Positions 53,948-58,181 of a DNA stretch of 64,000 nt are shown in pieces. The stretch lies in contig NZ_CP016477.1 of NCBI RefSeq assembly GCF_001693275.1, positions 930,001 to 994,000 on the forward strand, read 5' to 3'. Both the position numbers and the translations under genes were made by a program. Below the pieces are notes generated by a model. It was not told where the DNA came from and made no database searches. It saw only the letters and a program-made list of their open reading frames with translations. The stretch is from Picosynechococcus sp. PCC 7117. Its GTDB lineage: Bacteria > Cyanobacteriota > Cyanobacteriia > Cyanobacteriales > MRBY01. The number at the start of each line of letters is the position of its first letter. Position 1 is the stretch's first letter.

Positions 53948-54419
53948 TCTCCTCCTCCTGTGAGCATGCCACTGGGTTATTGGAACATCCTTAGATTCTT
54001 AATGTAACCCAATCATCATACAGTTTATTATTATGAGCGTTTTCCGGTGCGCTTTCCATAGAGCAAAATTTTTTCTGGTGATGATAGCCGGGGCGATCGC
54101 CTCAAGACTTGCCCAGACCAGAGAGCATACATCCCCATACCTAACGCTAGCTGATCAACGGAGTAGGTACTCGAACCACTCAGGCTCCCTAACCCGCTGC
54201 AATGTACAAAATCTTAAAGACCATCCCAAAGACCCTCCACTAAGCGATCGTGTAGAGGCCAATGAACAGACAAGCACGAAAATACAATCCTCCCAGACTA
54301 CGGTTTGTGCCCATTGATCGCACTCGGCATGAAAATAAGTCCATTTCGTCGATTGACCCTACCTTAAAAACTCAAGCTTGATCTTTTATGGATCGTCTTT
54401 CTTTCGATCTGGCTTTGTA

Positions 54420-54435
54420 AACATAAGTTTATGTT
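54420..54435. repeat. short palindrome
   Basis: AACATAA and TTATGTT flank a GT centre, giving a 7+2+7 palindrome in the noncoding region before the first secreted-protein gene. Confidence 0.7.
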
Positions 54436-54470
54436 AATTAGTTAAAGATGCCCTGAATTTTGTCAGTTTC

Positions 54471-54529
54471 ATGAAGCTTCTTTTAACCTCAGATTAATTA
54501 GGCACTAATTTTATAGAAAAAAGCTTCAT
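54471..54529. repeat. nested inverted repeat
   Basis: Outer arms ATGAAGCTT (54471-54479) and AAGCTTCAT (54521-54529) enclose inner arms AATTAG (54496-54501) and CTAATT (54505-54510) with a GCA loop. The transcript could form a long two-part hairpin. Confidence 0.65.
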
Positions 54530-54972
54530 TATATAGAATTTCTAAAAATCAAGCCTTAAAGGGTTGACCTTCCTTTTGAAAGGTAATAAAACTGAAGTAC
54601 AAACAAATACGTAAGTAACAAAAAGGAGTAAATCACAATCTGCCTCAGTGGGAACACGTATTTTTATCCCAAAAGAAGTATTTTATTCATCTTTCTCCTT
54701 TGTGAGAAGGTTCATGGAGATCCTTCTGGGGCACTTGAAGCCTCTGCTTGCAAGAATTCAAGCAATATACGTACGTGTTTCTCCAAAAAATCCTAGAAGT
54801 AGGGAGTAGTTCCTCTACCGAGATTTTAAGGAAATTAAGTGTTCTGAGGCTTGGTTTATACGGGAAATTTAGACTTGATAGTTTGGGTCTTACCTTTGCC
54901 TAGCAGCAAGACTAAATTAATTAGTTACGCATTTGTTGAAATCAAACTGAATTCTATTGAGGATTCCTTACA

Positions 54973-55551
54973 ATGGCTAAATTCAATTCTTCTACAATCG
55001 CATTCGCAACCATCATCGCTTTTGGTGCCATCGGTCAAGCCGCACAGGCTGGCGAAAGCTACGTCCGCAACACATTTGAACACAGCACCTCCAAAACGAC
55101 TTCTAATCTTGATCTGGAAAGCAAAGATTGGTATCACGGCTCTCGTGAATGGTCTAACTATGCTTACAAAGAATACTACGATGGAACTGTAACAACCAGT
55201 GTAGATGGTGAACTCTCTAGTGAAATTGCATTAACTGGAACTTTTGAAGGTACTGTTGAAGGTACCATTCAAGACGGTGCTCTATGTAACCAGTGTGGCG
55301 GTCCCGTTGACTTTTTTGAAGATGATTTTTCTGGTACCACAGAAGGCACAATTTCCTTAGAAGGTACTGAAAATACGATCGCATCTGACTTTACTACAAC
55401 AAGTGATTATGACGGCTTTACCTTCCATGTTGCCGGTGCCCATGAGACTGGTAATGAAACCTTTGGTGGCTATTCTAAAGTTACTGGCACCATTGAAGCT
55501 ATCATGCGATCTACAACTGATAGCCATGAAACTGCTGCCGGCAACCGTTAA
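54973..55551 (+). CDS. small secreted beta-rich protein, unknown (island gene 1)
   Basis: A 192-residue protein with a signal peptide (TIAFATIIAFGAIGQAAQA, cleaving before Gly-Glu-Ser). The mature part is Thr/Gly/Glu-rich with many alternating-residue stretches (GTFEGTVEGTIQDG, GTTEGTISLEGTENT), which suggests beta strands. A CxxC pair lies in LCNQCGG near residue 108. I recognise no family. It is the first of three plus-strand genes, each with a signal peptide, in an AT-rich, HIP1-free stretch. Confidence 0.75.
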   Translation: MAKFNSSTIAFATIIAFGAIGQAAQAGESYVRNTFEHSTSKTTSNLDLESKDWYHGSREWSNYAYKEYYDGTVTTSVDGELSSEIALTGTFEGTVEGTIQDGALCNQCGGPVDFFEDDFSGTTEGTISLEGTENTIASDFTTTSDYDGFTFHVAGAHETGNETFGGYSKVTGTIEAIMRSTTDSHETAAGNR

Positions 55552-55604
55552 TTTTGTCAGTGGTTTGTCTCGTAGCTAAGTTCTTTAATATTACGGACAG
55601 AATC

Positions 55605-56060
55605 ATGAAAAAAATGCTAGGTTTGGCGATGACCTTGTTCGTCGCCAGCCCGGCATTTGCGGGTAATCTGCTCAAGGGCGAGCCTTATTATGATGGCTTA
55701 TATGCAGGCGAACCCTTAACTATCGACATAGAGCCAGATCCTTTCGACTCTGAACCCACAATCCGGGCTAATTTTTTTCATTCCATTGAGCCATTCTACG
55801 GCGGCTCCACAGAAATTGATATTACAGAAGAATTTCGTGGGCAATCCAGCATTTTCGAAACGGAATTCTCTCAAAATGTAGTTTCCGGATCGATGACCCC
55901 CATCGATGGTGGTGTCGAATTTGAAAATTACACAGTCGAAAGTCAATATTCGTACGCATCAGAATTTACAACACGAGGTTCCTCTACAACGGTCAAAGGC
56001 TCAGCAGAGACCTATGGCACCACCTTTATTTTTGAAAGCAATCTCTCCGTTGAGTTCTAA
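55605..56060 (+). CDS. small secreted protein, unknown (island gene 2)
   Basis: A 151-residue protein. The start ATG at 55605 gives a clean signal peptide (MKKMLGLAMTLFVASPAFA); an in-frame ATG 17 codons upstream is rejected. The mature part is acidic, free of cysteine and Thr/Ser/Tyr-rich (TEIDITEEFRGQSSIFETEF, SEFTTRGSSTTVKGSAETYG). It weakly resembles the beta-rich style of the gene before it, but I cannot claim homology. The next gene starts 11 bp after its stop. Confidence 0.75.
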   Translation: MKKMLGLAMTLFVASPAFAGNLLKGEPYYDGLYAGEPLTIDIEPDPFDSEPTIRANFFHSIEPFYGGSTEIDITEEFRGQSSIFETEFSQNVVSGSMTPIDGGVEFENYTVESQYSYASEFTTRGSSTTVKGSAETYGTTFIFESNLSVEF

Positions 56061-56071
56061 AGGTTTTATTT

Positions 56072-56689
56072 ATGCTTGGTCGAAAATTCTTCACACTTTT
56101 AACGGCTGTCTCCACAGTGTTCCTGACTCCTATTTACGGAGCGGCTCAAACGATGCAAGATCAAAGTAATACGATGAATAATGAAAATTCATTGGGGAAT
56201 AGTGCGACTGGGGTAGTCAACCAAACCGCTGTGTACAACTTAGGTCAAAGTGCCACCTACGGTTTTAGAGGGATCGTTTGTCCCCGCCCTTCCTTTGTGC
56301 TCAGTGGCTCTGCAAATGGAAATAGCTTTGACGGCAACACTTCAAATTCCTATGCTCTTTCCGGTGCCATTATTGTGCCTCTCGGTGGTCAAGTGGGCAG
56401 CAACTGTAGAGATTTCAGCACTACCCTACTGGAAAGAGAACAAGCCGAATTAGCAAAGTTTCAAATCCAATCTTCAGCGGAAACAGTCAAACTTTGTGCT
56501 GACATGATTTCTTCAGGCATTCAAGTAGACCCAGAGGTTTATCCAGTACTGGCGCGGCAATGTTCTGCGGTTCGGTTGGTTTCACAAGGACGGACTTCTA
56601 GTACAAATGAAGCCCGACAAAATGAATCGAGTCACAATAAGCTAGATGATGATGTAGAATTGTCTGCTAATTACTTAAAGACTGATTAA
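56072..56689 (+). CDS. small secreted protein with four cysteines, unknown (island gene 3)
   Basis: A 205-residue protein with a signal peptide (FFTLLTAVSTVFLTPIYGAAQ). The mature N-terminus is Asn/Ser/Gly-rich (MNNENSLGNSATGVVNQTAVYNLGQSA). It is followed by an ordered-looking domain with four Cys (IVCPRP, SNCRD, KLCADM, RQCSAV) and a helical segment LLEREQAELAKFQIQSS near 120-136. It could be an exported, disulfide-bonded surface or periplasmic protein. No family is recognised. It is probably cotranscribed with the two genes before it. Confidence 0.75.
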   Translation: MLGRKFFTLLTAVSTVFLTPIYGAAQTMQDQSNTMNNENSLGNSATGVVNQTAVYNLGQSATYGFRGIVCPRPSFVLSGSANGNSFDGNTSNSYALSGAIIVPLGGQVGSNCRDFSTTLLEREQAELAKFQIQSSAETVKLCADMISSGIQVDPEVYPVLARQCSAVRLVSQGRTSSTNEARQNESSHNKLDDDVELSANYLKTD

Positions 56690-57040
56690 ATATAATATTT
56701 TGAATGGTGAGGAAAAATATCTCAAAGGCTCTACGAAAATAAAAAAAGAGCGGCTAAAAAATCTTCAGCTTACAGTGACGCCTGTCTTTGCATTCTAAAG
56801 CACTAAAACACGGTCGTTTTTTTACTGACCCCAAGTGTTTTTATTACTATACTTAGAAATCCGTCAAATAGACATGGAATTGTTGTATTGAAATATCCTA
56901 CTGTATCTTTTAGTTCACAGTATTTTTCTTGAGTTGATTTTGTATCAGTAACTCAAGAAAATAAAGTCAAAGTGCTTCTATAATTTAAGATCTATTTTTA
57001 AACAGTACAGCTTTACAGAAAGAAAAACCAGAAGGGACGC
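56690..57040. other. 351-bp convergent intergenic region
   Basis: AT-rich, between two convergent secreted-protein genes. Its only clear structure is a perfect 12-bp inverted repeat at 56924-56961. No RNA gene or open frame of note. Confidence 0.5.
56924..56961. repeat. perfect 12-bp inverted repeat
   Basis: TTTTCTTGAGTT (56924-56935) and AACTCAAGAAAA (56950-56961) flank a 14-nt loop. T residues lie on the outer 5' side and A residues on the outer 3' side, the reverse of a bidirectional terminator, so its role is uncertain. Confidence 0.75.
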
Positions 57041-57433
57041 CTATTTTATATCGCTTTCTTCCCAGAGCAGCAGGACATTTTTTTCTGTAAAAGCAGAGCA
57101 ATTTGTACTGAAATCATTATCAATAATGACATTAGATTCTTCGATCAAGACATCTGTACCGTTGCTTATATCTGCTTCAGAGCCTAATACAATGGGGTAT
57201 TGTGGTTGTTGACATGCCGCATTAACGAGTACTTTGACTGGGAATACAACCGAATCATCGCTATAGGTGTAGACATTGGCGTGGTAGTAATAGGTATAGT
57301 CATCATAGTCGTAATTATATTCATAACCATACCGATACTGGTAATCAAAATCAATGAATACAGGTTCACTTTTTGCCTGTTGAACAACGATAAATGATAG
57401 ACCACTAAGGGCTGCTGTAAACAGTTTATTCAT
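57041..57433 (-). CDS. small secreted tyrosine-rich protein, unknown (island gene 4)
   Basis: A 130-residue protein with a signal-like start (MNKLFTAALSGLSFIVVQQAKS). Residues about 25-60 are extremely Tyr- and Asp-rich, with near-alternating Tyr in DYQYRYGYEYNYDYDDYTYY. The rest has two Cys (NAACQQPQ, TNCSAF) and acidic patches. No family is recognised. Tyr-rich tracts occur in adhesive and cross-linked surface proteins, but that role is only a guess. It is transcribed against the three preceding genes. Confidence 0.7.
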   Translation of the reverse strand: MNKLFTAALSGLSFIVVQQAKSEPVFIDFDYQYRYGYEYNYDYDDYTYYYHANVYTYSDDSVVFPVKVLVNAACQQPQYPIVLGSEADISNGTDVLIEESNVIIDNDFSTNCSAFTEKNVLLLWEESDIK

Positions 57434-58181
57434 TTTGCTTTCTCCATCCCTTGACTTAATTGATCAATATTGGAGCGATCAGTTTGAGTAAATTTTTTTG
57501 TAAAAGAACTTTTGCTGAAAGCACATCTCTTGGGTTTGTTGGTGCTTAATGTTGTACTCAATGCTTTTGGTTATGAATTATTTATGTTTACGATGAGAAA
57601 AATTCGAGGTTGAGTGATTGAAATATTGATGCTCTCCCCCTAAATGATAACAATATTTGAGAAAGCATGACTACGTAGTTTAAATAAAAATTCAAGATAT
57701 GTTTCAATACTCAAAAATAGTGAATAAGTATTGCATAAACAAAAGGGGTATTGACGACCTTCGTTTAGTAGTCTGAATCTAGTCTGCCTCTAACTTCTTG
57801 GGATAAATTGAAGTCTCAATTTTGAAAGCTTAGTGATGCATCTTTTTTCTAACACAATTAATTTGATAGGCAAAGGTTGTCTAAAATTATCAAAAAAAGA
57901 AGAAGGAAAAATTTTCTACTTCGGAAAGTCATCGTGGGGATTGGGGAAGCAGCAAAAGTTGCTTTTTATGTTCTGGCTCCCTTCAGGCCGTTTTTAGGGC
58001 TTGCCCACTGGTCAAATTGAATTTAAAAAAAACTCTGGGGCGGCTCAGGGCGATCGCCATAGACTTTTCGCAGAATTACACTAAAATAATGTGTTAGGGA
58101 GGAATATGATCGCACACTAATCAAACAAGCTTTAGTTTGAAGCCTTGATTTACTATTCGCCGAAAGTATCTTGAAGAGTCT
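57434..58181. other. 748-bp AT-rich intergenic region at the island's right edge
   Basis: Rich in inverted repeats: AAATATTG/CAATATTT (57621-57658) interleaved with ATGCTCTC/GAGAAAGCAT (57629-57668), ACTACGTAGT (57670-57679), CAATACT/AGTATTG (57705-57733), and an AAGCAGC-AAAA-GTTGCTT hairpin followed by T residues (57947-57967). HIP1 returns at 58050. It has no protein-coding frame of note. Promoters for the Tyr-rich gene and the downstream regulator should lie here. A small RNA ending at the 57.95-kb hairpin is possible. Confidence 0.5.
57621..57668. repeat. interleaved inverted repeats, pseudoknot-like order
   Basis: Arms A (57621-57628) and A' (57651-57658), B (57629-57636) and B' (57659-57668) occur in the order A-B-A'-B'. 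This allows a pseudoknot or two alternative pairings in RNA. B' has a two-base bulge. Confidence 0.5.

Follow-up and report, generated by a model that had tools for sequence, protein, structure and literature searches.

Gene clusters GC 218, 219, 234, 235 and 237 form a group of unknown function reported from 15 of 16 sequenced cyanomyoviruses (Sullivan et al. 2010, PMC3037559), and the same T4-GC 218/219/234/235/237 cassette has been described as mobile (PMC3037559). A search of the literature for the relevant PHROG, DUF and T4-GC labels returned only this 2010 report as mentioning them, and the cassette has so far been without an assigned function. Podoviruses carry related genes: in the P-SSP7-type order, PSSP7_042 to PSSP7_045 correspond to phrog_9426, DUF6450, phrog_650 and phrog_1755, and PHROG 1755/848 includes both T4-GC235 of the cyanomyoviruses and PSSP7_045 of P-SSP7. 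Relatives of the P3-type cassette, named here after the bacterial protein described below, were found in podoviruses and in at least several hundred marine viral contigs.

We analyzed a stretch of 64,000 nucleotides from Picosynechococcus sp. PCC 7117 (NZ_CP016477.1, positions 930,001 to 994,000; hereafter, the window), which contains an island of about 4 kb with four small genes, P1 to P4 (Table 1). The third of these belongs to the family of the cyanophage cassette protein, and thus bacterium and virus appear to have a single envelope or cell-surface module in common. The preliminary description of three tandem plus-strand genes opposed by one, all encoding exported proteins, holds for position and orientation, with N-terminal signal-peptide-like sequences judged by eye in all four ORFs. 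Its statement that none could be placed in a family stands as far as Pfam and NCBIfam are concerned, which hold no family for any of P1–P4, and falls for P3, given its homology to a family known from cyanophages.

Table 1. Features of the island, in window coordinates
Feature	Position	Strand	Remarks
Left noncoding flank	54101..54972	.	GC 0.385; aligns collinearly at its left end with the intergenic region of G002
Candidate cluster promoter, TTGACC-17-TAAAAC	54564..54592	+	blastn matches in congeners
Segment absent from G002	54599..57913	.	about 137 bp stands instead between the conserved left (promoter) and right ends
P1	54973..55551	+	192 aa; signal peptide (by eye); C-terminal motif HETAAGNR
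P2	55605..56060	+	151 aa; signal peptide (by eye)
P3	56072..56689	+	205 aa; signal peptide (by eye); matches PHROG 1755/848 (cyanophage T4-GC235)
P4	57041..57433	-	130 aa; signal peptide (by eye); Tyr/Asp-rich; convergent with P1–P3
Right noncoding flank	57434..58181	.	GC 0.352; the part from about 57914 to the response-regulator gene is conserved in G002

The island was originally singled out as an AT-rich region lacking HIP1 (GCGATCGC), and both observations proved exact: no HIP1 site occurs in 54101–58049, the nearest ones lying at 54093–54100 and 58050–58057, and the GC content is 0.394 vs 0.495, with the lowest-GC 4-kb and 1-kb windows both falling inside the island. The HIP1-free interval of 3957 bp is the longest in the window and the second longest measures 2154 bp, in agreement with the estimate of about 2 kb for the other gaps. 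The genome as a whole carries 5578 HIP1 sites in 3.43 Mb, and in a 790-kb sample three gaps at least as long as that of the island were seen vs approximately 1.7 expected under random placement; such gaps are therefore uncommon, yet not exceptional. Several 4-kb windows of the same sample also have a GC content below that of the island. The orthologous cluster in the congener G001 has an equally low GC content (0.383) and two HIP1 sites, which indicates that low GC and the noncoding flanks account for the gap and that it is no signature; in the remnant of the locus in another congener, G002, three sites were found in the sampled interval. The absence of HIP1 was accordingly dropped as a distinguishing feature of the cluster, since sites are present in the G001 cluster and comparable gaps exist elsewhere in the genome.

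The long noncoding flanks noted in the preliminary description are real, whereas the inverted repeats said to fill them are weak, comprising one short palindrome, one local hairpin and otherwise short, imperfect and widely spaced pairs. Terminator-like and promoter-like sites in the island occur at chance level, and an Rfam search of the island gave no match. The candidate promoter lies in the left flank, where a leader of about 370 nt precedes P1, and has blastn counterparts in the two congeners G001 and G002 (E values of 7e-5 and 6e-7): TTGACT-17-TATAAC at the relocated G001 cluster, and an orphan TTGACT-17-TCAAAC with no genes behind it in G002.

Comparison of four congeners showed conserved synteny of the two genes that flank the island, which encode a CPP1/DnaJ-like protein and a response regulator, with a distance between the two of 4234 bp in the window, 1122 bp in G002 and 230–298 bp in G001, G004 and G005. 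In G002, the closest congener by flank identity, a deletion spanning about 3.3 kb has removed the genes, while 0.85 kb of extra DNA and the orphan promoter remain, which places the cluster at this site before the window genome (G000) and G002 split. All four genes, including the convergent P4, are found with identical order and promoter elsewhere on the chromosome of G001. A gene adjoining that cluster (L036:15325-16260) possibly encodes an L,D-transpeptidase, as judged by eye; because it sits on replicon C6 in G000 and C3 in G002, the G001 site represents a rearranged region. The synonymous divergence of P1–P3 from G001 equals that of neighboring core genes, with dS near saturation, and their non-synonymous divergence is modestly higher than in these neighbors. 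The match in dS points to an old, mobile and loss-prone cassette without recent import, and no integrase- or transposase-like ORF was recognized by eye in the island. The earlier suggestion of recently acquired DNA is not supported, on these grounds and on the age implied by the orphan promoter. The simplest account of the sequence comparison would be an insertion that preceded the G000/G002 split, followed by loss in G002, the G001 cluster being located elsewhere.

The codon-position pattern and dN/dS of approximately 0.1–0.2 show that P1–P3 are real genes under selection. Relative to G001, dN/dS (Nei–Gojobori) was about 0.18 for P1, 0.17 for P2 and 0.09 for P3, and approximately 0.04–0.14 for four neighboring core genes; synonymous sites of P4 are saturated in this comparison. 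Scans of P1, P2 and P4 against Pfam, NCBIfam and PHROG yielded nothing convincing, and profiles searched against the PDB gave no match. AF2 models were poor (pLDDT 45 for P1 and 43 for P3), and their secondary structure indicates, with low confidence, that P1 is beta-rich. Mutual homology of P1 and P2 was rejected, as their scores did not exceed those of shuffled sequences. P1 has relatives in G001, G020, Nostoc and Calothrix; P2 is confined to the window genome and G001; P4 is conserved in G001 alone, at the corresponding place in the cluster, and has no counterpart outside the genus.

P3 combines an Asn/Gln-rich N-terminus, a VNQTxVYN motif, four conserved Cys residues and an amphipathic strand ending in PLGG, followed by helices. 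Its match to the PHROG 1755 profile (E 1.7e-5) is exceeded by that of a Nostoc-type P3 (G115; E 4.6e-11), and PHROG 848 is matched as well. Alignment of host and phage P3 profiles with hhalign gave a probability of 98% (E 1.2e-13) over 109 columns, the significant profile similarity spans the C-terminal domain, and both share the Cys positions and an amphipathic strand ending in PLxG. Searches by tblastn with P3 reached many cyanophages; in the host P3 profile search no viral contig was matched directly. The alternation of hydrophobic residues in the conserved strand, which ends in PLGG or a variant, was equaled in 0 of 5000 shuffles, and the family constants are export, conserved Cys residues (four in host proteins), the alternating strand and the helices after it. 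In the phylogenetic tree all sampled phage P3 proteins but that of S-CAM7 fall into one clade (99/99). The S-CAM7 protein groups with hosts (86/92), a placement from which more than one transfer of P3 between host and phage seems possible.

The resemblance extends to the genes that accompany P3. A signal-peptide ORF, called by a crude rule, lies directly upstream of the phage P3 gene in 147 of 150 loci (70 of 73 myovirus-like and 77 of 77 podovirus-like), and in the S-SM2 annotation, where the P3 homologue is T4-GC235, GC237 is upstream and GC234 convergent. A conserved signal peptide, in frame with phage P3 but absent from its annotation, overlaps the preceding gene at its 3′ end (L082:3797, L083:3800, L086:3545 and L293:2375). 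In 42 of the 48 scored podovirus loci the cleavage motif is preceded, at a distance of 37 codons, by GTG, TTG or ATG; a canonical start 10–45 codons upstream occurs in none of the 51 scored myovirus loci, suggesting that myovirus P3 may be translated from a non-standard start or through a frameshift. Host and phage modules are tied together by one genome (G481), in which two partner proteins beside P3 match PHROG 564 (T4-GC237) with E values of 3e-11 and 3e-14. Homology of the host P1 and P2 to phage partners or to those of host family f41 was tested and rejected: real sequences aligned no better than shuffles, and no homology to phrog_564 or phrog_650 was detected.

Clusters of P3 with exported partners were found in G001, G020 (two copies), Nostoc, Calothrix and families f18, f20, f32, f33, f40 and f41. 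Relatives of both P1 and P3 are found in G020 (two clusters), several Nostoc, Calothrix parasitica and f20, and P3 relatives with other exported partners in f18, f32 (G481), f40 and f41. Presence is patchy, a strict P3 model being matched in 19 of 389 genomes of the order (some matches weak) and a broad model in 11 of 386 genomes phylum-wide, while gene order is kept in G001 and the genes are lost in G002; a plasmid search with P3 gave no match. One of the G020 copies (L022:5745-7911) lies near integrase-like and RES/Xre-like genes recognized by eye, hinting at mobility. The five f41 genomes with a P3 operon (G235, G253, G303, G372 and G393; 2.4–3.0 Mb) are probably of Synechococcus/Cyanobium type, and giant Ig/cadherin (Big/cadherin) adhesin genes adjoin the operon in two of them. 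Together with the four proteins exported by eye and exported relatives in other genera, these neighbors support the earlier suggestion of a surface-type system. In four f41 genomes (L308–L311), the P3 operon adjoins genes for exported proteins of 356–412 aa that carry the motif TFSGSGTAxFNN..VGSxTxxGVNAS, with two copies in G303 and no Pfam match among those scanned. Microcystis-like genomes (g54; L067 and L069) carry a P3 relative near a patatin-like phospholipase gene, with no recognizable exported partner adjoining. A gene with an HTH-like N-terminus, in divergent orientation, lies near the P3 cluster of Nostoc, Calothrix, G209, G370 and G481 (L037, L045, L073, L079 and L080) and is sometimes fused to a full or truncated NB-ARC or AAA_35 NTPase.

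With about as much confidence for as against, we propose that the island represents the host form of the cyanophage-borne protein module, self-contained, mobile and prone to loss, with P3 as the envelope partner of surface-displayed proteins. A single strong promoter would drive P1–P2–P3. P1, P2 and P4 would be small, fast-diverging, beta-rich proteins exported through Sec, and P3 the conserved core, exported as well, stapled by Cys residues and built from an amphipathic beta region with helices after it. Located in the periplasm or outer membrane, P3 would hold, assemble or present its co-encoded partners on the cell surface, and the phage module would remodel the envelope of the infected cell late in infection. 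Promoter activity, localization, binding of partners by P3 and surface display are what we infer from these sequences; P3 may insert into a membrane, but the AF2 models are too poor to use. The proposal draws on the homology of P3 to phage proteins, its recurrent linkage to small exported proteins, purifying selection, relocation as a unit and the loss in G002. Constant P3 features alongside partners that vary beyond recognition fit an envelope partner serving a variety of surface proteins. Against it stand the P1/P2 and phage partners, which are alike in layout without detectable homology, the Microcystis-like P3 genes that lack a recognizable exported neighbor, and the narrow distribution of P2 and P4. 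A broader and rather improbable version is that a P3-core envelope machine with interchangeable exported partners is common to cyanobacteria and phages, the latter having taken it from host surface operons to breach or remodel the outer membrane, which would account for cyanophages without recognizable spanins.

The main rival, possible though we think it unlikely, is a lysis device that replaces spanins in cyanophages: P3, its partners and a C-terminally anchored membrane protein would destabilize the outer membrane beside a holin-like protein, and hosts would retain a derivative of it that serves self-lysis or conflict. T7 lysis genes occupy roughly the same genome place as the pair in P-SSP7 and its relatives, which is located between a small transmembrane protein of holin-like topology (DUF6450) and the small terminase. 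The phage cassette does include such an anchored protein (phrog_570/9426), and spanins are reported to be absent from cyanophages (PMC6139136). Podovirus gene order and the lack of spanins thus favor lysis, whereas host context opposes it. Host clusters hold no holin, endolysin or transmembrane partner, and the several diverged exported partners of hosts fit surface proteins better than a lysis switch. The cassette of the myoviruses inspected has psbA, hsp20 or carbon-metabolism genes nearby instead of lysis genes.

An alteration of surface receptors, providing superinfection exclusion in phages and phage resistance in hosts, would account for exchange between the two and for patchy presence, and is consistent with exported proteins found in both, gain and loss among hosts and the divergent HTH-STAND NTPase gene adjoining the host cluster in several lineages. 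We regard it as quite improbable, however: no link to a receptor was found, HTH-STAND genes may just be frequent in such genomes, and none lies beside the cluster in this genus. The view that the island consists of low-GC DNA in decay and without function, or of ORFs assembled by chance, is very hard to sustain. Low GC, long noncoding flanks and the G002 deletion would fit decay, but the codon-position pattern and dN/dS of P1–P3 argue against it, as does the retention of the four-gene order and promoter at a different locus in G001.

The surface-display reading concerns a module whose host versions occur in cultivable, tractable cyanobacteria, in which a simple deletion could reveal the function of the cassette, and the outcome bears on how cyanophages alter or open the host envelope. 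The cAMP-regulated surface genes slr1667/slr1668 of Synechocystis were considered as a possible relative. Curli (CsgA/CsgB/CsgG) and TolC-type systems offer an analogy only, in that small, exported proteins rich in beta structure have an envelope partner of their own; a Pfam scan to E 10 detected neither a curlin repeat nor a CsgG match in P1–P4, and an identity of P3 as a TolC/OEP outer-membrane factor is not supported, PF02321 giving no match. Membership in a spanin module is likewise not supported by gene neighborhood: the window contains no holin or endolysin neighbors, and among phages only podoviruses have a holin-like one. The f41 operons resemble the island in that two tandem exported proteins precede the P3 homologue (in four of five genomes), but differ in having two further Cys-rich exported genes downstream and partners with no sequence relation to P1/P2. 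P-SSP7-type podoviruses likewise have a P3-family gene immediately preceded by one for an exported protein of beta type, although they add transmembrane and holin-like proteins and adjoin terminase genes. Finally, the cyanomyovirus cassette differs in that GC237 and phrog_650 are unrelated in sequence to the host P1/P2 and in its GC234/phrog_570/phrog_9426-type membrane protein, of which the island has none (P4 shows no similarity to GC234), yet its GC235 is homologous to P3 and likewise lies downstream of tandem genes for small exported proteins.
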